Source of the DNA: Aristolochia californica
Lineage: Eukaryota > Streptophyta > Magnoliopsida > Piperales > Aristolochiaceae
Assembly (NCBI GenBank): GCA_029961685.1
Contig: JARWKL010000010.1
Location: 9,879,931 to 9,943,930, forward strand
Direction of reading: 5' to 3'
Length of the DNA: 64,000 nt
Shown: positions 13,595-47,347 of the stretch, piece by piece
Position numbering within the stretch: position 1 is the first letter of the stretch
How the letters are laid out: every line of letters begins with the position of its first letter
Notes under the pieces: generated by a model
Seen by the model: only the letters and a program-made list of their open reading frames with translations
Databases searched by the model: none
What the model was told of the DNA's origin: nothing
Made by a program: the position numbers and the translations under genes

Positions 13595-16500
13595 GGATCA
13601 TTTGGCCACTTGCATCCTCAACATGTTTCTGGCATGCATATCTTCCACATTTAAAAATTTATTAGGATAAGTTAGAAGTCTCTTTCCATATCAAATCTAT
13701 TAGGGGTTGTACTAGTGGTACTTCCCAAACATGGATAACAAAACTTTGGCGTTCAATTTTTAGTGCGTGAAATAATTTTCTTCACTCACATTTATTATAG
13801 TTTCCAAATTCTTTTGAGTACATGAACTCTAAAATTTTAAATTTGTTGTGATCTTATATCTGTTTTTCTTTACATGAAAAAAGGGAGAGTGAAAACTCAA
13901 GTTTGGATCTGAAAAAAAAATTGAACATCCAAAATGGAATGCACAAATGCTGAAAAAGAAAATTCCAAAAAGAATCTGTGATTTTTAAGGATAGGCAAAA
14001 AGTAGGTTGTTGGGCTCCGGTAAATATCCAACCACACGTTAACTTGAGAATTTAATTTTTTCTACTCCATGAAAATTTTGGATCATTAGGCCACTGGCAT
14101 CCTCAACATGTTTCTGGCATGCATATCCACCACACTTAAAATTTATTAGGATAAGTTAGAAGTCTCTTTCCATATCAAATCTATTAGGGGTTGTACTAGT
14201 GGTACTTCCCAAACATGGATAACAAAACTCTGGAGTTCATTTTGTAGTGCATGAAATAATTTTCTTCACTCACATTTATTATAGTTTCCAAATTCTTTTG
14301 CATACATAAATTCTTAAAGTTTTCATTTTGTTGTGATCTTATATCTTTTTTGTTTACAAGAAAAATGGGAGAGTGGAAACTCAACTTTCGATAAGAAAAA
14401 AAGAATTTTTACATCCAAAATGGAAATGCACAAATGCTAAGAGATATAATTTCAAAAAGTATCTGTGATTTTTAAGGATAGGCAAAAAGCTGGTTGTTGG
14501 GCTCCGGTAAATATCCAACCACACGTTAACTTTAGAAATTAATTTTTTCTACTCGAAAGTTTTGGATCATTAGGCCACTTGCATCCTCAACATGTTTCTG
14601 GCAATCATATCCACCACACTTAAAACATGTTAGGATCTGTTACAAGTCTCTTTGCTATCAAATCTATTATGGGTTGTACTAGTGGAACTTCCCAAACGTG
14701 CATAACAAAACTTTGGAGTTCATTTTTTAGTGCGTGAAACAATTTTCTTCACTTCCATTTGTTATGTTTCCAAATTCTTTTGCATACATAAACTCTAAAA
14801 TTTTCATTTTGTTGTGATCTTATATCTTTTTTGTTTACGAGAAAAAGGGGAGAGTGAAAACTCAAGTTTGGATCAGAAAAATAAAATTTTAACATCCAAA
14901 ATGGAAATGTACAAATGCTGAGGGAGATAATTCCAAAAAGTATATGTGATTTTTAAGGATTGGCAAAAAGTGGGTTGTTGGGCTCCTGTAAATATCGAAC
15001 CACACGTTAACTTGAGAATTTACTTTTTTCTACTCGAAATTTTTGGATCATTAGGCCACTTGCATCCTCAACATGTTTCTGGCATGCATATCCACCACAC
15101 TTAAAACATGTTAGGATCAGTTACAGGTCTCTTTCCTTTCAATTCTATTATGGGTTGTACTTGTGGAACTTCCCAAACATGGATAACAAAACTTTGGAGT
15201 TCATTTTTTAGTGCGTGAAATAATTTTCTTCACTCACATTTATTATAGTTTCCAAGTTCTTTTGAGTACATAAACTCTAAAATTTTCATTTTGTTGAGAT
15301 GTTATATCTGTTTTTCTTTACGAGAAAAAAGGGAGAGTGAAAACTTAAGTTTGGATCTGAAAAAAAAAATTGAACATCCAAAATGGAATGCACAAATGCT
15401 GATAAAGATAATTCCAAAAAGATTCTGTGATTTTTAAGGATAGGCAAAAAGTAGGTTGTTGGGCTCCGGTAAATATCCAACCACACGTTAACTTGAGAAT
15501 TTAATTTTTTCTACTCGATGAAAATTTTGGATCATTAGGCCACTGGCATCCCTAACATGTTTCTGGCATGCATATCCACCACACTTAAAATTTATTAGGA
15601 TAAGTTAGAAGTCTCTTTCCATATCAAATCTATTAGGGATTGTACTAGTGGAACTTCCCAAACATGGATAACAAAACTTTGGAGTTCATTTTTTAGTGCG
15701 TGAAATAATTTTCTTCACTTACATTTATTATAGTTTCAAAATTCTTTTGCATACTTAAACTCTAATATTTTCATTTTGTTGTGATCTTATATCTTTTTGG
15801 TTTACGAGGAAAAAGGGAGAGTGAAAACTCAACTTTGGATCAGAAAAATAAAATTTGAACATCCAAAATGGAAATGCACAAATGCTGAGAGAGATAATTC
15901 CAAAAAGTATCTGTGATTTTTAAGGATAGGCAAAAAGTGGGTTGTTGGGCTCCGGTAAATATCCAACCACACGTTAACTTGAGAATTTAATTTTTTCTAC
16001 TTGTAATTTTTGGATCATTAGGCCACTTGCATCCTCAACATGTTTCTGGCATGCATAGCCACCACACTTAAAACATGTTAGGATCACTTACAAGTCTCTT
16101 TCCTATCAAATCTATTAGGGGTTGTACTAGTGGAACTTTCCAAACATGGATAACAAAACTTTGGAGTTCATTTTTTAGTGCGTGAAATAATTTTCTTCAC
16201 TCACATTTACTATAGTTTCCAAATTCTTTTGAGAACTTAAACTCTAAAATTTTCATTTTGTTGTGATGTTATATCTGTTTTTCTTTACGAGAAAAAAGGG
16301 AGAGTGAAAACTCAAGTTTGGATCTGAAAAAAAAATTTGAACATCCAAAATGGAATGTACAAATGCTGAAAAAGATAATTCCAAAAAGAATCTGTGACTT
16401 TTAAGGATGCAAAAAGTGGGTTGCTGGGCTCCGGTAAATATCCAACCACTCGTTAACTTGAGAATTTAATTTTTTCTACTCCTTCAAAATTTTGGATCAT

Positions 16501-17942: not shown

Positions 17943-18600
17943 GATCATTAGGCCACTTGCATCTTCAACATATTTTTTGCATGCATATCCACCACACTCA
18001 AAACATATTAGGATCATTTACAAGTCTCTTTCCTATCAAATCTATTAGGGGTTCTACAAGTGGTAGTTCCCAAACATGGATAACAGAACTTTGGAGTTCA
18101 CATTTTAGTTCGTGAAATAATTTTATTCTCTCACATTTGTTATAGTTTCCAAATTCTTTTGCGTACTTAAACCCTTATAACGTTTTTTTTACGAGAAATT
18201 TGGAAGAGTGAAAACTCAAGTTTGAATCTGAAAAAAAAATTTGAACACCCAAAATGGGAATGCACTGATGCTGAGAGAGTTAATTCCAAAAAGTATACGT
18301 GATTTTTAAAGATAGGCAAAAAGTGGGTTGTTGGGCTCCAGTAAATATCCAACCACTCATTAACTTGAGAATTTAATTTTTTCTACTCCATGAAATTTTT
18401 GGATCATTAGGCCACTTGCATACTCAACATGTTTCTGGCAGGCATATACACTAGACTTAAAACATGTTAGGATCAGTTAGAAGTCTCTTTCCTATCAAAT
18501 CTATGAGGGGTTGTACTTGTGGAACTTCCCAAACATGGATAACAAAACTTTGGAGTTCGTTTTTTAGTGTGTGAAATAATTTTCTTCGCTCACATTTGTT
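17640..18600. repeat. 2.86-kb-offset duplicated block, copy 1
   Basis: Shares a run of rare variants with 20,490-21,450: gtaatatcacaccacatg, acatgtttacttgag, cacactcaaaacatatt, gaacacccaaaatggg, ctggcaggcatat with actaga, and ctatgaggggttg. The offset changes from 2,844 to 2,869 because this copy has lost about 25 bp at 18,170-18,182, between acttaaac and the T-tract before acgag. That makes the monomer after anchor 17,942 only 459 bp long. Anchors: 17,942 and 18,401. Confidence 0.82.
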
Positions 18601-20489
18601 ATAGTTTCCAAATTCTTTTGCATACTTTAACTCTAAAATTTTCATTTTGTTGTGATCTTATATCTTTTTTCTTTACGAGAAAAATGGGAGAGTGAAAATT
18701 GAAGTTTGGATTTGAAAAAAAAAATTTGAGCATCCAAAATGGAAATGCACAAATGCTGAGAGAGATAATTCCAAAAAGCATCTGTGATTTTTAAGGATAG
18801 GAAAAAAGTGGGTTGTTGGGCTCCAGTAAAAATCCAACCACACGTTAACTTGAAAATTTAATTTTTTCTACTCCTTTAAATTCATTAGGCCACTTGCATC
18901 CTGCATATCCACCAGACTTAAAACAAGTTAGGATCAGTTACGAGTCTCTTTCCTATCAAATCTATTAGGGATTGTAGTTTTGGAACTTTCCAAACAAGGA
19001 TAACAAAACTTTGGAGTTCATTTTTTAGTGCGTGAAATAAGTTTCTTCACTTACTATTATTATAGTTTCCAAATTCTTTTGCATACATAAACTCTAAAAT
19101 TTTCATTTTGTTGCGAACTTATATCTTTTTTGTTTACAAGAAAAATGGGAGAGTGAAAACTCAACTTTGGATCAGAAAAATAAAATTTTAACATCCAAAA
19201 TGGAAATGCACAAATGCTGAGAGAGATAATTCCAAAAAGTATCTGTGATTTTTAAGGATAGGCAAAAAGTGGCTTGTTGGGCTCCGGTAAATATCCAACC
19301 ACACGTTAATGTGAGAATTTAATTTTTTCTACTCAAAATTTTTGGATCATTAGGCAACTTGCATCCTCAACATGTTTCTGGAATGCATATCCACCACACT
19401 TAAAACAATTTAGGATCAGTTACAAGTCTCTTTGCTATCAAATCTATTAGGGGTTGTACTAGAGCAACTTCCCAAACATGGATAACAAAACTTTGGAGTT
19501 CATTTTTTAGTGCGTGAAATAATTTTCTTCACTCACATTTATTATAGCTTCCAAGTTCTTTTGAGTACATAAACTCTAAAATTTTCATTTTGTTGAGATC
19601 TTATATCTGTTTTTCTTTACGAGAAAAAAGGGAGAGTGAAAACTCCAGTTTGGATCTGAAAAAAAAAATTGAACATCCAAAATGGAATGCACAAATGCTG
19701 ATAAAGATAATTCCAAAAAGAATCTGTGATTTTTAAGGATAGGCAATAAGTGGGTTGGTGGGCTCCGGTAAATATGCAACCACAAGTTAACTTCAGAATT
19801 TAATTTATGCTACTCCTTCAAAATTTTGGATCATTAGGCCACTGGCATCCTTAACATGTTTCTGGCATGCATATCCACCGCACTTAAAATTTATTAGGAT
19901 CAATTACAAGTCTCTTTCCTATCAAATCTATTAGGGGTTGTACTAGTGGAACTTCCCAAATATAGATAACAAAACTTTGGAGTTCATTTTTTAGTGCGTG
20001 AAATAATTTTCTTCACTTGCATTTATTATAGTTTCCAAATTCTTTTGCATACATAAACTCTAAAATTTTCATTTTGTTGTGATCTTTTATTTTTTTTTGT
20101 TTTCGAGAAAAATGGGAGAGTGAAAACTCAACTTTGGATCAGAAAAATAAAATTTTAACATCCGAAATGGAAATCCACAAATTCTGAGAGAGATAATTCC
20201 TAAAAGTATCTGTGATTTTTAAGGATAGGCAAAAAGTGGGTTGTTGGGCTCTGGTAAATATCCAACCGCACGTGAACTTGAGAATTTAATTTTTTCTACT
20301 CGAAATTTTTGGATCATTAGGCCACTTGCATCCTCAACATGTTTCTGGCTTGCATATCCACCACACTTAAAACATGTGAGGATAAGTTACAAGTCTCTTT
20401 CCTATCAAATCTATTTAAGGGTTGTACTAGAGGAACTTCGCAAACATGGATAACAAAACTTTGGAGTTCATTTTTTAGTGCGTGAAATA
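18601..20489. repeat. A monomers with two small deletions near 18.89 kb
   Basis: Four monomers (anchors about 18,880, 19,344, 19,828 and 20,311). At 18,879-18,904 two pieces are missing: about 6-7 bp of the anchor (ttaaattcattagg) and about 20 bp between catcct and gcatatcc. The segment from 18,910 to about 19,340 shares ccagactt, tacgagtctc, agggattgt and gtttcttcacttact with 3,016-3,446 (offset about 15,896). The monomer at 19.6 kb is A2 (marker 19,684) and resembles the one at 6.1-6.3 kb, sharing agttaacttcagaattt and catccttaacatg. Confidence 0.72.
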
Positions 20490-25600: not shown

Positions 25601-28600
25601 GTCAGTTACAAGTGTCTTTCCTATCTAATCTATTAGAGGTTGTACTAGTGGAACTTCCCAAACATGGATAACAAAACTTTGGAGTTCATTTTTTAGTGCA
25701 CGAAATAATTTTCTTCACTCACATTTAATATAGTTTCCAAATTCTTTTGAGTAATATAAACTCTAAAATTTTCATTTTGTTGTGATCTTATATCGGTTTT
25801 TCTTTACGAGAAAAATGGAAGAGTGAAAACTCAAGTTTAGATCTGAAAAAAAAATTTGAACATCCAAAATGGAATGCACAAATGCAGAGAGAGATAATTG
25901 AAAAAAGAATCTGTGATTTTTAAAGATTGGCAAAAAGTGGGTTGTTGGTCTCCGATAAATATCCAACCACACGTTAACTTGAGAATTTTATTTTTTCTAC
26001 TCCTTGAATTTTTTGGATCATTAGGCCACTTGCATCCTCAACATGTTTCTGGCATGCATATCCACGACACTTAAAACATATTAGGATTAGTTACAAGTCT
26101 CTTTCCTATCAAATCTACTAGGGGTTGTACAAGTGGAACTTCCCAAACATGGATAACAAAACTTTGGAGTTCATTTTTTAGTGCGTGAAATAATTTTCTT
26201 CACTCACATTTATTATAGTTTCCAAATTCTTTTGCGTACATAAACTCTAAAATTTTCATTTTGTTGTGATTCATTATCTCTTTTTCTTTACGAGAAATTT
26301 GGGTGAGAGAAAACTCAAGTAAGTATCTGAAAAAAAAAATTGAACATTCAAAATGGGAATACACAAATGCTGAGAGAGATAATTCCAAAAAGTATATGTG
26401 ATTTTTAAAGATAGGCAAAAAGTTGGTTGTTGGGCTCCGGTAAATATTCAACCACATGTTAACTTGAGAATTTAATTTTTTCTACTCCTTTAAATTTTTG
26501 GATCATTAGGCCACTTTCATCCTCAAAATGTTTCCTGTATACATATGCACCAGACTTAAAAGATGTTACGATCAGTTACAAGTCTCTTTCCTATCAAATC
26601 TATTCGGGGTGTTACTCGTGGAACTTCCCAAACATGGATAACTAAACTTTGGAGTTCATTTTAGTGCATGAAATAGTTTTCTTCACTTACATTTATTATA
26701 GTTTCCAAATTCTTTTGCATACATAAACTCAAAAATTTTCATCTTGTCGTGATCTTATATGTTTTTTCTTTACGAGAAAAATGGAAGAGAGAAAACTCAA
26801 CTTTGGATCTGGAAAATAAAATTTTAACATCCAAAATGGAAATGCGCAAATGCTAAGAGGGATAATTCCAAAAAGTATCTGTGTTTTTAAAGGATAGGCA
26901 AAAAGTGGTTTGTTGGGCTCCGGTAAATATCCAACCACACGTTAACATGAGAATTTAATTTTTTCTACTCCTAGAAAATTTTGGATCATTAGGCCACTTG
27001 CATCCTCAACATGTTTCTGGCATTCATATCTACCACACTTAAAACATGTTAGGATCAGTTACAAGTCTCTTTCCTATCAAATCTATTAGGGGTTGTACTA
27101 GAGGAACTTCCCAAACATGGATAACAAAACTTTGGAGTTCATTTTTTAGTGCGTGAAATAATTTTCTTCACTCACATTTATTATAGTTTCCAAATTCTTT
27201 TGCGTACATAAACTCTAAAATTTTCATTTTGTTGTGATTCATTATCTCTTTTTCTTTACGAGAAAAATAGGAGAGTGAAAACACAAGTTTGGATCTGAAA
27301 AAAAAATTTGAACATCTAAAATGGAACGCACAAATGTTGAGAGAGATAATTTCAAAAGGTCTCCGTGATTAGGATAGGCAAAAAGTAGGTTGTTGGGCTG
27401 CGGTAAATATCACACCACACGTTAACTCGAGAAGTTATTTTTTTCTACTCCTTGAAATTTTTGGATCATTAGGCCACTTGCATCTTCAACATGTTTCTGG
27501 CATGCATATCCACCACACTTAAAACATTTTAGGATCTGTAACAAGACTCTTTCCTATCATATCTATTAGGGGTGAACTAGTGGAACATCCCAAACATAGA
27601 TTACAAAACTTTGGAGTTCATTTTTAAGTGTGTGAAATAATTTTCTTCACTCACATTTGTTATAGTTTCCAAATTCTTTTGCGAACTTAAATTCTAAAAT
27701 TTTCATTTTGTTGTGATCTTATATCTTTTTTCTTTACGAGAAATTTCGGAGAGTGAAAAATAGAGCTTGGTTCTAAAAAAAAAAATTTGAACATAAAAAA
27801 TGGGAATGCACAAATGCTGAGAGAGATAATTCCAAAAAGTATCTGTGATTTTTAAGGATAGGCAAAAAGTGGGTTGTTGGGCTCCGGTAAATATCCAACC
27901 ACATGTTAACTTCAGAATTTTATTTTTTCTTCTCCTTGAAATTTTTGGATCATTAGGCCACTTGCATCCTCAACATGTTTCTGGCATGCATATCCACCAC
28001 ACTTAAAACATATTAGGATCAATTACAAGTCTCTTTCCAATCAAATCTATTAGGGGGTGTACAAGTGGAACTTACCAAACATGGACAACAAAACATTGGA
28101 GTTCATTTTTTATTGCGTGAATTTTTTTTTTCAATTACATTTATTATAGTTTCCAAATTCTTTTGCATACATAAACTCAAAAATTTTCATTGTGTTGTGA
28201 TCTTATATCTTTTTTCTTTACTAGAAAAAAAGGGAGAGTGAAAAATCAATTTTGGATCTAAAAAATAAAATTTTAGGATCCAAAATGGAAATGCACAAAT
28301 GCTGAGAGGGATAATTCCAAAAAGTATCTATGATTTTTAAGGATAGGCAAAAAGTGGGTTGTTCGGCACCGGTAAATATCCATCCACACGTTAACTTGAG
28401 AATTTAATTTTTTCTTCTCCATGAAATTTTTGGATCATTAGGTCACTTTCATCCTCAACATATTTCTGGCATGCATATCCACCACACTTAAAACATGTTA
28501 GGATCAGTTACAAGTCTCTTTCCTATCAAATCTAAAAGGGGTTGTACTAGTGGAACTTCCCAAACATGGATAACAAAACTTTGGAGTTCATTTTTTAGTG

Positions 28601-28849
28601 CGTGAAATAATTTTCTTCGCTCACATTTGTTATAGTTTCAGAATTCTTTTGCGTACTTAAACTCTAAAATTTTCATTTTGTTGTGATCTTATATCTTTTT
28701 TCTTTACGAGAAAAATGGGAGAGTGAAAATTTAAGTTTGGATTTGAAAAAAAAAATTTAACTTCCAAAATGGAAATGCACAAATGGTGAGAGAGATAATT
28801 CAAAAAAGGATCTGTGATTTTTAAGGATAGGCAAAAAGTGGGTTGTTGG
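22647..28849. repeat. A zone without clear higher-order repeats
   Basis: Thirteen monomers up to the junction (anchors 22,647, 23,131, 23,611, 24,094, 24,575, 25,060, 25,530, 26,015, 26,500, 26,983, 27,463, 27,947, 28,432). Rare variants from further left reappear singly: actttcgataag with gtgaaacaattttc (23.4-23.8 kb), tttgtcaa (22.84 and 24.77 kb) and an A2 marker at 25,871. A 15-bp deletion at about 25,163 (ccattaggaac) shortens one unit to 470 bp. No unique sequence, gene or transposon was found. Confidence 0.8.
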
Positions 28850-28900
28850 GCTCCGGTAAATATCCAACCACATGTTAAATTTTTGGATAATTAGGTCCAC
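28850..28900. other. Junction between satellite subfamilies A and B
   Basis: The last A-specific signatures are ggctccggt (about 28,850) and cacatgttaa (28,869-28,878). The first B-specific signature is taggtccac (28,892-28,900), and everything downstream is B-type. The anchor interval here is 453 bp. About 31 bp normally present between gttaa and aatttttgg are missing, with only one or two shared A bases at the breakpoint. The subfamily switch and the deletion therefore fall within the same ~16 bases, which suggests one joining event. An assembly misjoin is the main alternative. Confidence 0.85.
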
Positions 28901-31192
28901 TTCCATCCTCAACATGTTTCCGGCATGCATATCCACCACACTTAAAAGCATGTTAGGATTAGTTAGAAGTCCCTTTCCTATAAAATTCCACCAAGCTTAT
29001 TATTAAGGGTTGTACTAGTGGAATTTCCAGAACATGGATAACAAAACCTTGGAGTTCAATTTTAGTGAGTGAAAAATTTTCAAATTTTTTTTGCATACAT
29101 GAACTCTAAAATTTTCATTTTGTTATGCCTTATATCATTTTTGTTTACGAGAAAAAAGGGAGAATGAAAACTCAAGTTTGGATCTTAAAAAAAATTTGAA
29201 CACCCAAAATGGAAATGCACAAATGCTGAGAGAGATAGTTCCAAAATGTATCTGTGATTTTTTTGGATAGGCAAAAAGTGGGTTGTTTGGCCCTGGTAAA
29301 TGTCCAACCACTTCAGAATATGATTTTTTCTACTCCTTCAAATTTTTGGATCATTAGGTCCACTTGCATCCTCAACATGTTTCTGGAATGTATATCCACC
29401 GCACTTTAATCATGTTAGTATCAGTTAGAAGTCCCTTTCCTATAAAATGCCACCAATCTTATTTTTAGGGGTTGTACTAGTGGAATTTCCAGAACATGAA
29501 TAACAAAACCTTGGAGTCCATTTTTAGTGCGTGAAATAATTTTCAAATTTTTATTGCATACATGAACTCTAAAATTTTCATTTTGTTATGCCTTATATCT
29601 TTTTTTTTACGAGAAAAATGGGTGAGTGAAAACTCAAGTTTGGATCTGAAAACAAATTTGAACATCCAAAATGGAAATGCACAAATGCTGAGAGATATAG
29701 TTCCGAAAAGTATCTGTGATTTTTAAGGATAGGCAAAAACTGGGTTGTTTGGCCCTGAAAATATCCAACCACTTGAGAATTTAATTTTTTCTACTCCTTT
29801 AAATTTTTGCATCATTACGTCCACTTGCATCCTCAACATGTTTCTGGCATGCATATCCACCGCACATAAAGCATGTTAGGATCAGTTAGAAGTACCTTTC
29901 CTATAAAATTCCACCAGCCTTATTATTAAGGGTTGTACCAGTGGAATTTCTCGAACATGGATAACAAATCCTTGGAGTTCATTTTAAGTGCCTGAAACAA
30001 TTTTCAAATTTTTTTTGCATACATGAACTCTAAAATTTTCATTTTGTTACTCCTTATATCTTTTTTGTTTACGAGAAAAATGGGAGAACGAAAACTCAAG
30101 TTTGGATCTTAAAACAAATTTGAACATCCAAAATGGAAATGCACAAATGCTGAGAGAGATAGTTCCAAAATGTATCTGTGATTTTTAAGGATAGGCAAAA
30201 AGTGGGTTGTTTGGCCCTGGTAAATAGCCAACCACTTGAGAATATGATTTTTTGTACTCCTTGAAATTTTTGGATCATTAGGTCCACTTGCATCCTCAAC
30301 ATGTTTCTGGAATGCATATCCACCGCACTTTAAGCATGTTAGGATCAGTTAGAAGAACCTTTCCTATAAAATTCCACCAAACTTATTATTAAGGGTTGTA
30401 CTAGTGGAATTTACCGAACATGGATAACAAAACCTTGGAGTTCATTTTAAGTGAGTCAAACAATTTTCAAATTTTTATTGCATACATGAACTCTAAAATT
30501 TTCATTTTGGTATGCCTTATATCATTTTTGTTTACGAGAAAAATGGGAGAGTGAAAACTCAAGTTTGGATCTGAAAACAAATTTGAACATCCTAAACGGA
30601 AATGCACAAATTCTATGAGAGATAGTTCCAAAAAGTATCTGTGATTTTTAAGGATAGGCAAAAGGTGGGTTGTTTGGTCCTGGTAAATACCCAACAAATT
30701 GAGAATTTGATTTTTTGTACTCGAATTTTTTGGATCATTAGGTCCACATGCATCCTCAACATGATTCTGGCATGCATATCCACCTCACTTAAAAGCATGT
30801 TAGGATCAGTTAGAAGTCCCTTTCCTATAAAATTCCACCAAGCTTATTATTAGAGGTTGTACTAGTGGAATTTCCAGAACATGGATAACAAAACCTTGGA
30901 GTTCATTTTTAGTGCGTGAAATAATTTTAAAATTTTTTTTGCACACTTGAACTCTAAAATTTCATTTTGTTGTGCCTTATATCTTTATGTTTACGAGAAA
31001 ATTGGGAGAGTGAAAACTAAGTTTGGATCTTAAAACAAATTTGAACATCCAAAATGGAAATGCACAAATTCTGAGAGAGATAGTTCCAAAAAGTATCTGT
31101 GATTTTTGAGGATAGGCAAAAAGTGGGTTGTTTGGCCCTAGAAAATATCTAACCACTTGAGAATTTGATTTTTTCTACTCCTTGAAATTTTT
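28895..31192. repeat. First B monomers beside the junction
   Basis: Five B monomers (anchors 29,348, 29,819, 30,272, 30,732 and 31,193). Already fully B-type at the indel positions. Local variants include cttattattaagggttg, gccttatatcatttttg, cttaaaagcatg (28,941 and 30,787) and cactttaatcatg. Lengths vary more than deeper in the array (453-471 bp), as expected near an array edge. No gene was seen. Confidence 0.8.
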
Positions 31193-35253: not shown

Positions 35254-35570
35254 GGATAGGCAAAAAGTAGGTTATTTGGCCGTGGAAAATATCCAACCAC
35301 TTGAGAATTTGATTTCTTCTACTCCTTGAAATTTTTGGAACATAAGGTCCACTTGCATCCTCAACAAGATTCTGGCACGCATATCCACCACACTTAAAGC
35401 TTGTTAAGATCAGTTAGAAGTCCCTTTCCCATAAAATTCCACCAAGCTTTATTATTACGGATTGTAGTAGTGGAATTTCCAGAACATGGATAACAAAACC
35501 TTGGAGTTCATTTTTAGTGCATGAAACAATTTTCAAATTTTTTTTGCATACATGAACTCTAAAATTTTCT
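35254..35570. repeat. Left direct repeat (type S) bounding the HOR block
   Basis: About 316 bp, from gcaaaaagtaggttatttgg through gatttcttctactcc, cataagg, cttgttaagatc, ctttcccataaaattcc and ccaagctttattatt to gcatgaaacaattttc. It reappears at 40,806-41,122 at an offset of 5,551-5,552 bp. After about 35,570 the monomer switches to P-type (ttttctttttggttcgcc instead of ttttcattttgttacgcc), so the monomer is an S/P hybrid. Confidence 0.8.
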
Positions 35571-35800
35571 TTTTGGTTCGCCTTATATCTTTTTTGTTTA
35601 TGAGAAAAATGGGAGTGCGAAAAATCAAGTTTGAATCTGAAAAAAAATTTGAACATCCAAAATGGAAATGCACAAATGCTTGAGAGAGATAGGTCCAAAA
35701 AGTATCTGTGATTTTTAAGGATAGGAAAAAATGGGTTGTTTGGCCCTGGTAAATATACAACCACTTGAGAATATGATTTTTTCTACTCCTTGCAATTTTT

Positions 35801-37649
35801 GGATCATTAGGTCCACTTGCATCCTCAACACGTATCTGGCATGCATATCCACCACACTTAAAGCATGTTAGGATCAGTTAGAAGTCCTTTTCCTATAAAA
35901 TTCCACCAAGCTTAGTATTAGGGGTTGAACTAGTGGAATCTCCAGAACATGGATAACAAAACCTTGGAGTTCATTTCTAGTGCATGAAATAATTTTCAAT
36001 TTTTTTTTGCATACATGAACTCTAAAATTTTCTTTTTGGTTCGCCTTTTATCTTTTTTGTTGATGAGAAAAATGGGAGTGCGAAAAATCAAGTTTGAATC
36101 TGAAAAAAAATTTGAACATCCAAAATGGAAATGCACAAATGCTGAGAGAGATAGGTCCAAAAAGTATCTGTGATTTTTAAGGATAGGAAAAAATGGGTTG
36201 TTTGGCCCTGGTAAATATACAACCACTTGAGAATATGATTTTTTCTACTCCTTGCAATTTTTGGATCATTAGGTCCACTTGCATCCTCAACACGTATCTG
36301 GCATGCATATCCACCACACTTAAAGCATGTTAGGATCAGTTAGAAGTCCTTTTCCTATAAAATTCCACCAAGCTTAGTATTAGGGGTTGAACTAGTGGAA
36401 TTTCCAGAACATGGATAAAAAAACCTTGGAGTTCATTTCTAGTGCGTGAAATAATTTTCAATTTTCTTTTGCATACATGAACTCTAAAATTTTCATTTTG
36501 TTATGCCTTATATCTTTTTTGTTTACGAGAAAAATGGGAGAGTGATAACTCAAGCTTGGATCTGAAAAAAAAATTGAACATCCAAAATGGGAATACACAA
36601 ATGCTGAGAGAGATAGTTCCAAAAATTATCTGGGATTTTTAAGGATAGGCAAAGAGTGGGTTGTTTGGCCCTGGTAAATATCCAACCACTTGAGACTTTG
36701 ATTTTTTCTACTCCTCTAAATTTTTGGATCATTAGGTCCACTTGCATCCTCAACATGTTTTTGGCATGTATATACACCGCACTTAAAGCATGTTAGGGTA
36801 AGTTAGAAGTCCCTTTCCTATAAAATTTCACCAAGCTTATTATTTCTGGTGTTACTAGTGGAATTTCAAGAACATGGATAACAAAACCTTGGAGTTCATT
36901 CATAGTTTGTGAAATAATTTTTAAATTTTTTTTGCATACAATAACTCTAAAATTTTCATTTTGTTATACCTTATATCTTTTTTGGTTACGAGAAAAATGG
37001 GAGAGTGAAAACTCAAGTTTGGATCTGAAAACAAATTTGAACATCCAAAATAGAAATGCACAAATGCCGAGAGAGATAGTTCCAAAAAGTATCTGTGATT
37101 TTTAAGGATAGGCAAAAAGTGGGAAGTTTGGCGCTGGAAAATATCCAACCACTTATGAATTTGATTTTTTCTACTCCTAGAAATTTTTGGATCATTAGGT
37201 CCACTTGCATCCTCAACATGTTTCTGGCATGCATATCCACCGCACTTAAAGCATGTTAGGATCATTTAGAAATCCTTTCCTATAAAATTCCACCAAGCTT
37301 ATTATTAGGGGTTGTACTAGTGGAATTTCCAGAACAAGGATAACAAAACCTTGGAGATCATTTTTAGTACGTGAAATAATTGTCAAATTTTTTTTGCATA
37401 CATGAACTCTAAAATTTTCTTTTTGGTAGGCCTTATATCTTTTTTGTTTACGAGAAAAATGGGAGTGAGAAAAATCAAGTTTGAATCTGAAAAAAAATTT
37501 GAACATCCAAAATGGAAATGCACAAATGCTGAGAGAGATAGGTCCAAAAAGTATTTGTGATTTTTAAGGATAGGAAAAAATGGGTTGTTTGGCCCTGGTA
37601 AATATACAACCACTTGAGCATATGATTTTTTCTACTCCTTGCAATTTTT
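35801..37649. repeat. Higher-order repeat copy 1: P-P-Q-R, 1,849 bp
   Basis: Four B monomers with distinct signatures. P (35,801 and 36,263) has cttgcaatttttgg, cacgtatctggc, cttagtattagggg and ttgaactag. Q (36,726) has cctctaaatttttgg and tatttctggtgttac. R (37,189) has cctagaaatttttgg and a gggaagtttggcgctgg lead-in. The next 1,849 bp repeat this order with very few differences: for example A at 36,593 against T at 38,442, and T at 36,640 against G at 38,489. The segment before Q carries a second HindIII site (AAGCTT at 36,552-36,557). Confidence 0.92.
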
Positions 37650-39498
37650 GGATCATTAGGTCCACTTGCATCCTCAACACGTATCTGGCATGCATATCCA
37701 CCACACTTAAAGCATGTTAGGATCAGTTAGAAGTCCTTTTCCTATAAAATTCCACCAAGCTTAGTATTAGGGGTTGAACTAGTGGAATCTCCAGAACATG
37801 GATAACAAAACCTTGGAGTTCATTTCTAGTGCGTGAAATAATTTTCAATTTTTTTTTGCATACATGAACTCTAAAATTTTCTTTTTGGTTCGCCTTATAT
37901 CTTTTTTGTTGATGAGAAAAATGGGAGTGCGAAAAATCAAGTTTGAATCTGAAAAAAAATTTGAACATCCAAAATGGAAATGCACAAATGCTGAGAGAGA
38001 TAGGTCCAAAAAGTATCTGTGATTTTTAAGGATAGGAAAAAATGGGTTGTTTGGCCCTGGTAAATATACAACCACTTGAGAATATGATTTTTTCTACTCC
38101 TTGCAATTTTTGGATCATTAGGTCCACTTGCATCCTCAACACGTATCTGGCATGCATATCCACCACACTTAAAGCATGTTAGGATCAGTTAGAAGTCCTT
38201 TTCCTATAAAATTCCACCAAGCTTAGTATTAGGGGTTGAACTAGTGGAATTTCCAGAACATGGATAAAAAAACCTTGGAGTTCATTTCTAGTGCGTGAAA
38301 TAATTTTCAATTTTCTTTTGCATACATGAACTCTAAAATTTTCATTTTGTTATGCCTTATATCTTTTTTGTTTACGAGAAAAATGGGAGAGTGATAACTC
38401 AAGCTTGGATCTGAAAAAAAAATTGAACATCCAAAATGGGATTACACAAATGCTGAGAGAGATAGTTCCAAAAATTATCTGGGATTTTGAAGGATAGGCA
38501 AAGAGTGGGTTGTTTGGCCCTGGTAAATATCCAACCACTTGAGACTTTGATTTTTTCTACTCCTCTAAATTTTTGGATCATTAGGTCCACTTGCATCCTC
38601 AACATGTTTTTGGCATGTATATACACCGCACTTAAAGCATGTTAGGGTAAGTTAGAAGTCCCTTTCCTATAAAATTTCACCAAGCTTATTATTTCTGGTG
38701 TTACTAGTGGAATTTCAAGAACATGGATAACAAAACCTTGGAGTTCATTCATAGTTTGTGAAATAATTTTTAAATTTTTTTTGCATACAATAACTCTAAA
38801 ATTTTCATTTTGTTATACCTTATATCTTTTTTGGTTACGAGAAAAATGGGAGAGTGAAAACTCAAGTTTGGATCTGAAAACAAATTTGAACATCCAAAAT
38901 AGAAATGCACAAATGCCGAGAGAGATAGTTCCAAAAAGTATCTGTGATTTTTAAGGATAGGCAAAAAGTGGGAAGTTTGGCGCTGGAAAATATCCAACCA
39001 CTTATGAATTTGATTTTTTCTACTCCTAGAAATTTTTGGATCATTAGGTCCACTTGCATCCTCAACATGTTTCTGGCATGCATATCCACCGCACTTAAAG
39101 CATGTTAGGATCATTTAGAAATCCTTTCCTATAAAATTCCACCAAGCTTATTATTAGGGGTTGTACTAGTGGAATTTCCAGAACAAGGATAACAAAACCT
39201 TGGAGATCATTTTTAGTACGTGAAATAATTGTCAAATTTTTTTTGCATACATGAACTCTAAAATTTTTTTTTTGGTAGGCCTTATATCTTTTTTGTTTAC
39301 GAGAAAAATGGGAGTGAGAAAAATCAAGTTTGAATCTGAAAAAAAATTTGAACATCCAAAATGGAAATGCACAAATGCTGAGAGAGATAGGTCCAAAAAG
39401 TATCTGTGATTTTTAAGGATAGGAAAAAATGGGTTGTTTGGCCCTGGTAAATATACAACCACTTGAGCATATGATTTTTTCTACTCCTTGCAATTTTT
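37650..39498. repeat. Higher-order repeat copy 2: P-P-Q-R, 1,849 bp
   Basis: Anchors 37,650 (P), 38,112 (P), 38,575 (Q) and 39,038 (R) sit exactly 1,849 bp after those of copy 1 from 35,801, 36,263, 36,726 and 37,189. The extra HindIII site before Q is at 38,401-38,406. Near-identity over almost 1.85 kb, against clear divergence between P, Q and R themselves, is the definition of a higher-order repeat. Confidence 0.92.
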
Positions 39499-40811
39499 GG
39501 ATCATTAGGTCCACTTGCATCCTCAACACGTATCTGGCATGCATATCCACCACACTTAAAGCATGTTAGGATCAGTTAGAAGTCCTTTTCCTATAAAATT
39601 CCACCAAGCTTAGTATTAGGGGTTGAACTAGTGGAATTTCCAGAACATGGATAACAAAACCTTGGAGTTCATTTCTAGTGTGTGAAATAATTTTCAATTT
39701 TTTTTTGCATACATAAACTCTAAAATTTTCATTTTGTTATGCCTTATATCTTTTTTGTTTACGAGAAAAATGGGAGAGTGATAACTCAAGCTTGGATCTG
39801 AAAAAAAAATTGAACATCCAAAATGGGAATACACAAATGCTGAGAGAGATAGTTCCAAAAATTATCTGGGATTTTTAAGGATAGGCAAAGAGTGGGTTGT
39901 TTGGCCCTTGTAAATATCCAACCACTTGAGACTTTGATTTTTTCTACTCCTCTAAATTTTTGGATCATTAGGTCCACTTGCATCCTCAACAAGTTTCTGG
40001 CATGCATATCCACCACACTTAAAGCATGTTAGGGTAAGTTAGAAGTCCCTTTCCTATAAAATTCCACCAAGCTTATTATTTGTGGTGTTACTAGTGGAAT
40101 TTCAAGAACATGGATAACAAAACCTTGGAGTTCATTCATAGTTTGTGAAATAATTTTTAAATTTTTTTTTGCATACAATAACTCTAAAATTTTCATTTTG
40201 TTATACCTTATATCTTTTTTGGTGACGAGAAAAATGGGAGAGTGAAAACTCAAGTTTGGATCTGAAAACAAATTTGAACATCCAAAATAGAAATGCACAA
40301 ATGCCGAGAGAGATAGTTCAAAAAAGTATCTGTGATTTTTAAGGATAGGCAAAAAGTGGGAAGTTTGGCGCTGGAAAATATCCAACCACTTATGAATTTG
40401 ATTTTTTCTACTCCTTGAAATTTTTGGATCATTAGGTCCACTTGCATCCTCAACATGTTTTTGGCATGCATATCCACCGCACATAAAGCATGTTAGGATC
40501 ATTTAGAAATCCTTTCCTATAAAATTCCACCAAGCTTATTATTAGGGGTTGTACTAGTGGAATTTCCTGAACATGGATAACAAAACCTTGGAGATCATTT
40601 TTAGTACGTGAAATAATTTTCAAATTTTTTTTGCATACATGAACTCTAAAATTTTCTTTTTGGTAGGCCTTATATCTTTTTTGTTTACGAGAAAAATGGG
40701 AGTGAGAAAAATCAAGTTTGAATCTGAAAACAAATTTGAACATCCAAAATGAAAATGCACAAATGCTGAGAGAGATAGGTCCAAAAAGTATCTGTGATTT
40801 TTAAGGATAGG
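39499..40811. repeat. Higher-order repeat copy 3: P-Q-R, one P missing
   Basis: Anchors 39,499 (P), 39,962 (Q) and 40,426 (R). Q and R lie 1,387-1,388 bp after their counterparts in copy 2, so one P monomer is missing. The extra HindIII site before Q is at 39,788-39,793. R has tccttgaaatttttgg instead of cctagaaatttttgg, so it is slightly more diverged. The last monomer turns into type S between 40,772 and 40,811. Confidence 0.88.
40772..40811. other. Crossover point inside a hybrid R/P-to-S monomer
   Basis: Up to gataggtcc (about 40,772) the monomer has the P-type signature. P monomers continue with ggataggaaaaaatggg, but here the sequence continues ggataggcaaaaagtagg and then ttatttggccgtgg, the type S signature also seen at 35,254. 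The exchange lies in the shared tatctgtgatttttaaggat stretch between them. Confidence 0.78.
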
Positions 40812-42510
40812 CAAAAAGTAGGTTATTTGGCCGTGGAAAATATCCAACCACTTGAGAATTTGATTTCTTCTACTCCTTGAAATTTTTGGATCATAAGGTC
40901 CACTTGCATCCTCAACATGATTCTGGCATGCATATCCACCGCACTTAAAGCTTGTTAAGATCAGTTAGAAGTCCCTTTCCCATAAAATTCCACCAAGCTT
41001 TATTATTAGGGGTTGTAGTAGTGGAATTTCCAGAACATGGATAACAAAACCTTGGAGTTCATTTTTAGTGCATGAAACAATTTTCAAATTTTTTTTGCAT
41101 ACATGAACTCTAAAATTTTCATTTTGTTACGCCTTATATCTTTTTTTTTTACGAGAAAAATGGGAGAGTGAAAACTCAAGTTTGGATCTGAAAACAAATT
41201 TGAACTTCCAAACTAGAAATGCACTAATGCTAAGAGAGATAGTTCCAAAAAGTATCTGTGATTTTTAAGGATAGTCAAAAAGTGGGTTGTTTGGCCCTGG
41301 TAAATATCCAACCACTTGACAATTTAATTTTTTCCACTCGAAATTTTTGGATCTTTGCGTCAACTTGCATCCTCAACATGTTTCTGGCATGCATATTCAC
41401 CGCACTTAAAGCATGTTAGCATCAGTTAGAAATCCTTTTCCTATAAAATTCCACCAAGCTTATTATAAGCGATTGTACTAGTGGAATTTCCAGAACATGG
41501 ATAACAAAATTATGGAGTTCAATTTTAGAGCGTGAAATAATTTTCAAATTTTTTTTGCATACATGAACTCTAAAATTTTCATTTTGTTATGCCTTATATC
41601 CTTTTTGTTTACGAAAAAAATGGGAGGGTGAAAACTCAAGTTTTGATGGGAAAACAAATTTGAACATCCAAAATGGAAATGCACAAATGCTAAGAGAGAT
41701 AGTTCCAAAAGTATCTGTGATTTTTAAGGATAGGCAAAAAGTGAGTTGTTTGGCCCTGGTAAATATCCAACCATTTGAGAATTTGATTTTTTCTACTCCT
41801 CGAAATTTTTGGAACATTAGGTCCACTTGCATCCTCAACATGTTTCAGGCATGTATATCCACCGCACTTAAAGCATGTTAGAATCAGTTTGAAGTCCTTT
41901 TCCTATAATTTTCCACCAAGCTTATTATTAGGGGTTGAACTAGTGGAATTTCCAGAACATGGACAACAAAACCTTGGAATTCATTTTTAGTGAGTGTAAT
42001 AATTTTCAAATTTTTTTTGAATACATGAACTCTAAAATTTTCATTTTGTTAGGCCTTATTTCTTTTTTGTTTACGAGAAAAGTGGGAGAGTGAAAACTCA
42101 AGTTTGGATCAGAAAATAAATTTCAACATCCAAAATGGAATTGCACAAATGCTGAGAGAGATAGTTCCAAAAAGTATCTATGATTTTTAAGGATAGGCAA
42201 AAAGTGGGTTGTTTGGCCTTGGTAAATATCCAACCACTCGAGAATTTGATTTTTTATAGTCCTTGAAATTTTTGGATCATTACGTCCACTTGGATCCTCA
42301 ACATGCTTCTGGCACGCATATCCACCCCACTTAAAGCATGTTAGGATCAGTTAGAAGTCCCTTTCATACAAAATTCCACCAAGCTTATTATTAGGGGTTG
42401 TACTAGTGGAAGTTCTAGAACATGGATAAATAAACCTTGGAGTTCATTTTCAGTGCGTGAAATAATTTTTGAATTTTTTTTGCATACTTGAACTCTAAAA
42501 TTTTTATTTT
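40811..42510. repeat. 8.31-kb-offset duplicated block, copy 2, starting with type S
   Basis: Partner of 32,500-34,200. Its first 310 or so bases are also the right-hand direct repeat bounding the HOR block (match to 35,254-35,570). Then come gaacttcc with gcactaatgc, gttgaactag with catggacaac, catgcttctggcacgc with atccacccc, ggaagttc, and aatttttgaattttt. Anchors: 40,888, 41,349, 41,811, 42,274. Confidence 0.78.
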
Positions 42511-44820
42511 GTTATGCCTTATATTTTTTTGTTCACGAGAAAAATGGGACAGTGAAAACTCAAGTTTGGATCTTAAAACAAATTTGAACATCCAAAATGG
42601 AAATGCACAAATGCTGGCAGAGATAGTTCCAAAAAGTATCTGTGATTTTTAAGAATAGGCAAAAAGTGGGTTGTTTGGCCCTGGTAAATATTCAATCACT
42701 TGAGAATTTGATTTTTTCTACACCTTTAAATTTTTGGATCATTAGATCCACTTGCATCCTCAAAATGTTTCTGGCATGCATATCCACTATACTTAAAGCA
42801 TTTGAGGATCAGTTAGAAGTCCCTTTCCTCTAAAATTCCACCAAGCTTATTATTAGGGGTTGTACTAGTGGAATTTCCAGAACATGGATAACAACCTAGC
42901 AGATCAGTTTTAGTGCGTGAAATAAATTTCCATTTTTTTTTGCATACATGAACTCTAAAATGTTCATTTTGAGCCTTATATCTTTTTTGTTCACGAGAAA
43001 AATGTGACAGTGAAAACTCAAGTTTGGATTTGAACAAAAATTTGAACATCCAAAATGGAAATGCACGAATGCTGAGAGACATAGTTCTAAAAAGTATCTA
43101 TGATGTTTAAGGATACGCAAAAAGCTGAATGTTTGGGCCTGGTAAATATCCAACCATTTGAGAATTTTATTTTTTCTACTCCTTGAAATTTTTGGATCAT
43201 TTGGTCCACTTGCATCCTCAACATGTTTCCGGCATGCATGTCCACCACACTTAAAGCATGTTAGGATTAGTTAAAAGCCCCTTTCCTATAAAATTCCACC
43301 AAGCTTATTATTAAGGGTTGTACTAGTGGAATTTCCAGAACATGGATAACAAAACCGTGGAATTCATTTTTAATGAGTAAAACAATTTTCAAATTTTCTT
43401 TGCATACTTGAACTCTAAAATTTTCATTTTGTTATGCCTTATATCTTTTTTTTTTACTAGAAAAATGGGAGAGTGAAAAGTCAAGTTTGGATCTTAAAAG
43501 AAATTTGAACATCCAAAATGGAAGTGCACAAATGCTGAGAGAGATAGTTCCAAAATGTATCTGTGATTTTTTAGTATAGGCAAAGAGTGGGTTGTTTGGC
43601 CCTGGTAAATATCCAACAACTTGAGAATATGATTTTTTCGACTCCTTGAAATTTTTGGATCATTAGGTCCACTTGCATCCTCAACATGTTTCTGGCATGC
43701 ATATCCACCGCACTTTAATCATGTCAGGATCAGTTAGAAGTCCCTTTTCAATAAAATTCCACCAAGTTTATTATTAGGGGTTGTACTAGTGGAATTTCCA
43801 GAACAGGAATAATAAAACCTTGGAGTTCATTTTTAGTGCATGAAATAATTTTCAAATTTTTTTGCATACAAGAACTCTAAAATTTTCATTTTGTTATGCC
43901 TTATATCATTTTTTTACGAGAAAAATGGGTGAGTGAAAATTCAAGTTTGGATCTGAAAACAAATGAGAACATCCAAAATGGAAATGCACAAATGCTGAGA
44001 GACATAGTTCCAAAAAGTATCTGTGATTTTTAAGGATAGGCGAAAAGTGGGTTGTTTGGCCCTGGAAAATATCCAACCACTTGACAATTTAATTTTTTCT
44101 ACTCAAAATTTTTGGATCATTAGGTCCACTTGCATCCTCAACATGTTTCTGGCACGCATATCCACCGCACTTAAAGCATGTTTGGATCAGTTAGAAGTCT
44201 TTTTCCTATAAAATTCCACCGAGCTTATTATTAGGGGTTATACTAGTGGAATTTCCAGAACATGGATACCAAAACATTGGAGTTCATTTTTAGTGCGAGA
44301 AATAATTTTCAAATTTTTTTTTACATACATGATCGCAAAAATTTTCATTTTGTAATGCCATATATCTTTTTTGTTTACGATAAAAATGGGAGAGTGAAAA
44401 CTCAAGTTTGGATCTGAAAAAAAATTTGAACAACCTAAACGGAAATGCACAAATTCTTTGAGAGATAGTTCCAAAAAGTATCTGTGATTTTTAAGGATAG
44501 GCATAAAGGGGGTTGTTTGGCCCTGGTAAATCTCCAACCACTTGAGAATTTGATTTTTTTACCCCTTGAAATTTTTGGATCATTCGGTCCACTTGCATCC
44601 TCAACATGATTTTGGCATGCATATCCACCACATTTAGAGCATGTTAGGATCAGTTAGAAGTCCATTTCCTATAAAATTCCACCAAGCTTAATATTAGAGG
44701 TTGTACTAGTGGAATTTCAAGAACGTGGATAACAAAACCTTGGAGTTCATTTTTAGTGCGATAAATAATTTTCAAATTTTTTTTGCATACATCAACTCTA
44801 AACTTTTTATTTTGTTATGC
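42510..44820. repeat. 6.9-kb-offset duplicated block, copy 1
   Basis: Five monomers matching 49,410-51,720 at offsets of 6,894-6,899 bp (15 monomers). Shared markers in order are gggacagtg, attagatcc with actatactt and gcattt, aacctagca with cattttgagccttat (a loss of tgttat and neighbours), ggaagtgcac with aaaatgtatctg, cactttaatcatg or ccttaatcatg, gggtgagtgaaaattc with agaacatcc, gataccaaaacattgg with gcgagaaat, and gaacgtgg with gcgataaat. Anchors: 42,736, 43,194, 43,657, 44,114, 44,577. Confidence 0.82.
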
Positions 44821-47347
44821 CATATATCTTTTTAGTTTACGAGAAAAATGGGAGAGTGAAAACTCAAGTTTGGATCTGAAAACAAATTTAAACATCCAAA
44901 ATGGAAATGCACAAATGCTAAGCGAGATAGTTCCAAAAGTATCTGTGATTTTTAAGGATAGGCAAAAAATGGGTTGTTTGGCCCTGGAAAATATCCAACC
45001 ACTTGAGAATTTGATTTTTTCTGTTCCTTGAAATTTTTGGATCATTAGGTCCACTTGCATCCTCAACATGTTTCTGGCATGCATATCCACCGCACTTAAA
45101 GCATGTTAGGATCAGTTAGAAGTCCCTTTCCTATAAAATTCCACCAAGCTTATTATTAGGGGTTGTACTAGTGCAATTTCCAGAACATGGATAACAAAAC
45201 CTAGGAGTTCATTTTTAGTGCGTGAAATAATTTTCAAACTTTTTTTGCATACCTGCACTCTAAAATTTTCATTTTGTGATGCCTTATACCTTTTTTGGTT
45301 ACGAGAAAAATGGGAGAGTGAAAATTCAAGTTTGGAAATGAAAACAAATTTGAACATCCAAAATGGAAACTCACAAATGCTTAGAGAGATAGTTCAAAAA
45401 AGTATCTGTGATTTTTAAGGATAGGCAAAAAGTGGGTTGTTTGGCCCTGGTAAATATCCAACCACTTGACAATTTGATTTTTTCTACTCTAAATTTTTGG
45501 ATCATTAGGTCCATTTCCATCCTCAACATGTTTCTGACATGCATATCTAGTGCACTTAAAGCGTGTTAGGATCAGTTAGAAGTCCCTTTCCTATGAAATT
45601 CCACCAAGCTTATTATTAGGGGTCGCTCTAATGGAATTTCCAGAACATGGATAACAAAACCTTGGAGTTCCTTTTTAGTGAGTGAAACAATTTTCAATTT
45701 TTTTTTGCATACATGAACTCTAAAATTTTCATTTTGTTGTGCTTTATATCTTTTTTGTTTACGAGAAAAATGGGAGAGTGAAAACTCAATTTTGGATCTG
45801 AAAACAAATTTGAACATCCAAAATGGAAATGCAAAAACGCTGAGAGAGATAGTTCCAAAAGTATCTGTGATTTTTAAGGATAGGTAAAAAGTGGGTTGTT
45901 TGGCCCTGGTAAATATCCAACCACTTGAGAATATGATTTTTTCTACTCCTTGCAATTTTTGGATCATTCGGCCCACTTGTATCCTCAAGATGTATCTGGC
46001 ATGCATATCCACCGCATTTAAAGCATGTTAGGATCAGTTACAAGTCCCTTTCCTATAAAATTCCACCAAGCTTATCATTAGGGGTTGTACTAGTGGAATT
46101 TCCTGAACATGGATAACAAAACCTTGGAGTTCATTTTTAGTGCGTGAAAAAATTTTCAAATTTTTTTTCCATACATGAACTCTGAAATTTTCATTTTGTT
46201 ATGTCTTATATCTTTTTTGTTTACGAGAAAAATGGGAGAGTGAAAACTCAAGTTTGGATCTGAAAACAAATTTGAACATCCAAAATGGAAATGCACAAAT
46301 GCTTACAGAGATAGTTCCAAAAAGTATCTGTGATTTTTAAGGATAGGCAAAAAGTGAGTTGTTTGGCCCTGGAAAATATCCAACCGCTTGAGATATTTAT
46401 TTTTTCTACTTTTTGAAATTTTTGGATCATTAGGTCCACTTGCATCCTCAACATGTTTCTGGGATGCATATCCACCGCACTTAAAGAATGTTAGGATCAA
46501 TTAGAAGTCCCTTTCCTATAAAATTCCACAAAGCTTTTTATTAGGGGTTGTACTAGTGGAATTTCCAAAACATGGATAACAAAACCTTGGAGTTCATTTT
46601 TAATGTGTGAAATAATTTTCAAATTTTTTTTGCATACATGAACTCTAAAATTTTCATTTTGTTACGCCTTATATCTTTTTTTTTTACGAGAAAAATGGGA
46701 GTGAAAACTCAAGTTTGGATCTGAAAAAAAATTTAAACATCCAAAATGGAAATGCACAAATGCTGAGAGAGACAGTTCCAAAAAGTATCTGTGATTTTTA
46801 AGGATGGGCAAAAAGTGGGTTTTTTGGCCCTTGTAAATATCCAACCACTTGAGAATTTAATTTTTTTTACTCCTTGAAATTTTTGGATCATTAGGTCCAC
46901 TTGCATCCTCAACATGTTTCCGGCATGCATGTCCACCACACTTAAAGCATGTTAGGATTAGTTAGAAGTTCCTTTCTTATAAAATTCCACCAAGCTTATT
47001 ATTAGGGGTTGTACTAGTGGAATTTCAAGAACATGGATAACAAAACCTTGGAATTCATTTTTAGTGCGTGAAACAATTTTCAAATTTTCTTTGCATACAT
47101 GAACTCTAAAATTTTTATTTTGTTATTCCTTGTATCTTTTTAGTTTACGAGAAAAATGGGAGAGTGAAAACTCAAGTTTGGATCTTAAAACGAATTTGAA
47201 CATCCATAATGGAAATGCACAAATGCTGAAAGAGAGAGTTCCAGAATGTATCTGTGATTTTTTAGGATAGGCGAAGATTAGGTGGTTTGGCGCTCGTAAA
47301 TATCCAACCACTTGAGAATATGACTTTTTCTATTCCTTGAAATTTTT
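44114..47347. repeat. Old HOR unit U-V-W-X plus followers, 7 monomers
   Basis: U (44,114) has gataccaaaacattgg and gcgagaaat. V (44,577) has gaacgtgg, gcgataaat and catcaactc. W (45,039) has gtgcaatttcc, cctgcactc and gaaactcac. X (45,499) has ggtcgctctaatgg. The units after X at 45,961 (ttttccatacatgaactctg, atgtcttat) and 46,424 (gagatatttatttt before it, cacaaagc in it) match 56,547 and 57,008. The whole U to 46,424 run matches 54,697-57,008 at 10,583-10,586 bp (23 monomers). Anchors also include 46,885. Confidence 0.75.

Follow-up and report, generated by a model that had tools for sequence, protein, structure and literature searches.

A sharp switch between two subfamilies of one satellite family in Aristolochia californica

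Introduction

The subfamilies of primate alpha-satellite are sorted into layered arrays. A satellite locus of Aristolochia californica, for which a window of 64,000 nucleotides was analyzed, resembles this system in that its two subfamilies, designated A and B, are sorted into separate blocks, whereas the primate satellite is characterized by monomers of 171 bp and a known role at the centromere.

Sharp borders of satellite arrays were described outside primates, and the comparisons given here refer to the available excerpts of the cited publications. For cactophilic Drosophila, illegitimate recombination was invoked to explain abrupt switches between satellite arrays (Kuhn et al. 2009, cited in PMC3694981 and PMC5139131). 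The locus studied here shares the sharp switch between tandem arrays with the Drosophila case, which was explained by illegitimate recombination at local similarity tracts. However, the Drosophila arrays represent non-homologous satellites, whereas A and B are two equally oriented subfamilies within one family. In molluscs, satellite junctions are likewise abrupt and the bordering monomers do not notably stand out from the variant pool (PMC5139131). Both the abrupt transition and the ordinary bordering monomers recur at the present locus, but the molluscan junctions lead from a satellite to other sequences (PMC5139131). For Meloidogyne nematodes, divergent monomers were found to be joined in conserved boxes (Box 2, approximately 20 bp consisting of A, T and C tracts), and illegitimate recombination was proposed (PMC3694981). 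Joining of divergent monomers at a short conserved motif is common to the nematode satellites and the locus described here, although the nematode joins are recurrent and lie within higher-order repeats, whereas only one junction is present here (PMC3694981). In the available excerpt of a further publication (PMC7004042), the words "breakpoint" and "switch" are absent.

The A/B join belongs to this published kind of abrupt satellite junction ascribed to illegitimate recombination; it is ordinary in kind and represents a clean example. Particular to it are the membership of both sides in one family, the retained orientation and the long clean stretches on each side. A first-pass annotation of the sequence had described sharp edges of this kind as rarely captured, which appears too strong in view of the abrupt switches and junctions published for Drosophila and molluscs (PMC3694981, PMC5139131; available excerpts).

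Results and Discussion

Organization of the satellite arrays

Based on a repeat finder and on anchor spacing, the whole 64-kb window consists of a single satellite family arranged head-to-tail on one strand. All 137 anchors within the window were located on the + strand and none on the - strand, and no minus-strand self match was obtained for the window at an E-value of 1e-5. The locus thus represents satellite DNA (a tandem repeat array) in the sense of a long head-to-tail run of similar monomers on a single strand. Anchor spacing is mostly 480-487 bp before position 28,424, followed by one spacing of 453 bp and then by spacings of mostly 455-464 bp. Spacings outside these ranges stem from shortened monomers, from an anchor that was missed (943 bp at 18,393) and from an additional anchor (57,232).

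The A-type array was located at positions 252-28,423 (+ strand) and comprises 57 A monomers of at least 300 bp before the junction monomer, with a consensus monomer of 484 bp. Bases 1-251 also have the appearance of the A array, and bases 1-359 match positions 10,443-10,801 at 95%. The 943-bp block at 18,393-19,335 contains both A-only blocks twice, is devoid of the B block and was typed as A. The junction monomer (28,424-28,876, + strand) is also of the A type. It is followed by the B-type array (28,877-64,000, + strand), which includes 75 B monomers of at least 300 bp, has a consensus monomer of 462-463 bp and continues past the right end of the window. In total, the A and B arrays account for approximately 28 kb and 35 kb of the window, respectively.

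Within positions 27,900-29,900, no RNA family was detected at gathering score, and the A/B satellite is best explained as non-coding. None of six satellite stretches of 17-26 bases was present in the papers covered by a literature search by sequence, and a literature search by monomer length likewise gave no hit. Moreover, one 26-base stretch had no exact match in the viral and prokaryote contigs covered.

Separation of the A and B subfamilies

In order to compare the two subfamilies, an alignment of 136 monomer fragments was used, from which the 943-bp block at 18,393 was left out. Columns were considered diagnostic when A and B had different states, each present in more than 80% of the monomers of its type. 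The 65 diagnostic columns identified showed A states up to the junction monomer (m28424) and B states from m28877 onwards. Opposite calls at these columns were either isolated or gap-driven in shortened or cut rows (m252, m1658, m28424, m57232 and m63900). Furthermore, none of the 133 monomers of at least 300 bp (58 A monomers including the junction monomer and 75 B monomers) was flagged for opposite-type states at two neighbouring substitution sites. In an unrooted monomer tree, the split between A and B received a support of 1.0, both for all columns and for 444 low-gap columns. These results confirm the sharp switch within a single monomer reported in the first-pass annotation, and A and B monomers are not intermixed on either side of it within the window.

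Among the 449 columns that the A and B consensus sequences share, 23 carry a substitution (5.1%), with 15 transitions and 8 transversions. In addition, a single base and a 13-bp block are present in B only, while a 24-bp block, an 8-bp block and three single bases are present in A only. Two monomers of the same array differ on average by 10.5% (A) or 10.1% (B), and the mean distance of a monomer to its own consensus is 5.9% (A) or 5.5% (B). The difference between the consensus sequences is therefore smaller than the mean of approximately 10% between two monomers within one array. Hence, the divergence to which the first-pass term "diverged" refers is modest, with 5.1% plus indels. Grouping by array, near-fixed diagnostic differences and the absence of mosaics correspond to separately homogenised subfamilies. 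Considering the within-array distances together with the distance between the consensus sequences, the A and B arrays each look as if they had arisen from a single founder and then changed independently, with local duplications added later.

Minor variants common to A and B were found in numbers close to those expected from recurrent change, with a mild excess at lower counts. In total, 338 were observed versus 325.6 expected (sd 7.5). For variants with counts of at least two, 115 were observed versus 99.8 expected (sd 6.1), and for those with counts of at least three, 44 versus 37.3 (sd 4.4); both represent a mild excess. For counts of at least five, the values were 10 and 7.1 (sd 2.4). Based on the mild excess, A and B may have undergone some exchange or may have ancestral variation in common. 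Gene conversion between the two subfamilies was rejected, since no run of at least two adjacent opposite substitution sites occurs in the 133 monomers.

Across the whole window, changes from the consensus are characterized by a low transition/transversion ratio (0.67 and 0.68; approximately 0.5 for singletons). An excess of changes towards A/T was also observed across the window.

The join at base level

The last A-specific sequence is the A-only 8-bp block at 28,870-28,877 (+ strand), the placement of which is ambiguous by 2 bp, and position 28,876 is the last base that can be assigned to A alone without ambiguity. Directly after this block, the junction monomer runs into AAATTTTTGG, which is the monomer start. 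The join point was located at 28,876-28,879 (+ strand), where 31 bp are missing and bases 28,877-28,878 (AA) fit both sides, forming a two-base overlap. The following interval (28,879-28,895, + strand) is identical in both consensus sequences, and the first B-only base is an inserted T at 28,896 (+ strand; GGTCC). The stretch common to the A and B consensus sequences at the join thus amounts to 19 bp (28,877-28,895), and the breakpoint is readable to within 20 bp.

In the first-pass annotation, the place of the switch was recognized correctly, whereas its ends had been set at 28,878 and 28,892 instead of 28,876 (last A-only base) and 28,896 (first B-only base). The reported loss of about 31 bp was reproduced: the junction monomer, starting at 28,424, has a length of 453 bp as compared to 484 bp for the A consensus, at the end of which the 31 bp are lacking, and the gap lies inside 28,876-28,896. 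The claim of the same orientation on both sides agrees with the anchors, and except for the shift of 31 bp, the phase is also retained.

The junction word GTTAAATTTTTGGAT occurs exactly once in the window, with 65 further sites found only when one or two mismatches were allowed. Likewise, 12 words across the join have one occurrence each in the window. Within the interval identical in both consensus sequences, a C-to-A change is present at 28,889 (word GGATAATTAGG), which three A monomers share but which is absent from all other B monomers. This variant weakly suggests that 28,879-28,895 came from the A side.

Deletion and switch as one probable event

At the join, monomer position 453 is connected to position 1, with 31 bp lost and an overlap of 2 bp, as in an illegitimate junction, assuming that the switch and the deletion represent one event. 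The change from A to B states at the diagnostic sites takes place between 28,876 and 28,896, an interval that also contains the 31-bp gap. Homologous unequal crossing-over corresponds to a join in register; the present join is displaced by 31 bp, but it would be in register, within the bases common to both consensus sequences (28,877-28,895), if the deletion was a separate event. An overlap of only AA, together with the displacement of 31 bp, is unlike homologous unequal crossing-over.

Alternatively, the locus may reflect two events, in either order: the loss of 31 bp from an A monomer, and a homologous (unequal) crossover by which A and B were connected within the conserved monomer start that follows. 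The 28,879-28,895 interval carries a minor A variant (the C-to-A change at 28,889), which fits such a crossover placed a few bases to the right of the deletion. Short deletions are common in both arrays (12 of at least 8 bp besides the join). The monomer start is also among the least variable parts of B, where 8, 2, 17 and 6% of windows lie below the 20-bp windows at starts 0, 5, 10 and 20; however, the same windows are not notable in A (26, 26, 16 and 55%). Moreover, two independent events within approximately 50 bp would be needed. Six other deletions of at least 24 bp were found, in five of 131 other monomers, so that the chance of an unrelated deletion landing in this interval of approximately 50 bp is about 1%, as a rough estimate assuming uniform placement. 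An origin by two events is therefore considered rather unlikely, and a single out-of-register join is preferred over a deletion combined with a homologous crossover.

A 156-bp deletion in the A monomer at 1,658-1,986 has its right end at AAATTTTTGG, as does the join. A breakpoint hotspot at the monomer start is not claimed, because one such coincidence (m1658) is unsurprising among a dozen deletions.

Satellite arrays are prone to misassembly. This general tendency speaks for an assembly or chimeric-read artefact connecting arrays that are not neighbours, but an overlap misjoin would be expected to preserve the register and to coincide with an extended stretch of shared sequence. Here, the register is shifted by 31 bp, and the consensus stretch common to both sides comprises just 19 bp. 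Furthermore, the longest stretch that the two sides share exactly (94 bp, at 10,055 and 30,118) is located far from the join, which, together with the shift in register, makes a simple overlap misjoin unlikely. A chimeric molecule is a possible source of the join; overall, an artefact is regarded as very unlikely.

Edge monomers, local duplications and age

The last five A monomers differ from their consensus by 6.1%, compared to 5.9% for the rest of A (p 0.56), and the first five B monomers by 4.6%, compared to 5.6% for the rest of B (p 0.03). Degeneration of the edges, as for old array ends, was not supported, since edge monomers are as near to the consensus as others and the B monomers near the join are nearer. 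For A monomers, no trend in consensus distance with distance from the join was detected (rho 0.02, p 0.87). Among the B monomers at 28,877-64,000, the distance to the consensus rises away from the join (Spearman rho 0.35, p 0.002). The first-pass annotation had proposed that the edge could date the merger. This was not supported: edge monomers are no more diverged than others, and the window sequence contains no clock for the join.

The two-monomer B block at the edge (28,877-29,800, + strand) has close relatives at 43,186-44,105 and 50,081-51,004, with distances of 0.059-0.072 versus a mean of 0.10. In both relatives, the preceding monomers are of the B type. This would be anticipated had the join broken into a B array that was already present, in which case the join would be younger than that local duplication. 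The pattern offers a weak hint in this direction, since copying from the edge inwards would look identical. The third B monomer (m29801) has no rare variant in common with its counterparts, and the match ends there. Chance would account for approximately two of the 18 comparable two-monomer runs observed in B.

Local duplications are evident in both arrays. Fixed-lag runs of at least three similar monomers were found five times in A and six times in B, whereas 0.06 were obtained on average when monomer order was shuffled 300 times. The five-monomer block at 4,888-7,302 in A is repeated approximately 9.2 kb away at 14,072-16,485 with a distance of approximately 5%. Similarly, the six-monomer block at 42,266-45,030 in B is repeated at 49,164-51,928, i.e., 15 monomers (approximately 6.9 kb) away, with a distance of approximately 5.6%. 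The closest of these repeats, a recent tandem duplication of four monomers (approximately 1.85 kb), was observed in B at 35,329-40,879, where six lag-4 pairs are on average 2.2% apart; the closest lag-4 pair in B is identical. This duplication is followed in B by one with a lag of three monomers (3.1%).

Origin of the join

Based on these findings, the two founder-derived subfamilies A and B were probably joined once by illegitimate recombination of the end-joining or microhomology type. A and B would each have spread from their own founder before the join. A break near monomer position 453 of an A array would then have been connected to monomer position 1 of an equally oriented B array, with a 2-bp overlap and the loss of 31 bp. 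The non-degenerate edge monomers, the A/B split with a support of 1.0 and the number of shared variants near expectation were counted in favour of a single join, which would have taken place after both arrays had spread.

The first-pass annotation had likewise proposed one illegitimate joining of separately homogenised arrays. The sharp switch, the deletion inside the same interval and the 2-bp overlap agree with this proposal, but the merger of two arrays and an internal deletion of a mixed array look alike. In a variant compatible with a single illegitimate join, one larger array would have contained both A and B, and a deletion reaching from A into B would have removed the transition zone. 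The shared orientation of the two sides and their almost unchanged phase fit this variant, and its join signature would be the same as that of a merger; however, no intermediate or mosaic monomers are left on either side. The loss of a transition zone is accordingly regarded as possible, if somewhat doubtful.

It is highly improbable that the join represents a fixed fusion point of arrays from two chromosomes or parental genomes (e.g., by chromosome fusion or in a polyploid). If this were true, the single A/B boundary would be the mark of a rearrangement at the chromosome scale and might be used as a dated marker.

The A/B join cleanly illustrates how subfamilies of a satellite become neighbours, and it could be a marker for array turnover in populations. 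Furthermore, it could help to address whether adjacent subfamilies truly lack exchange or whether exchange is just suppressed.
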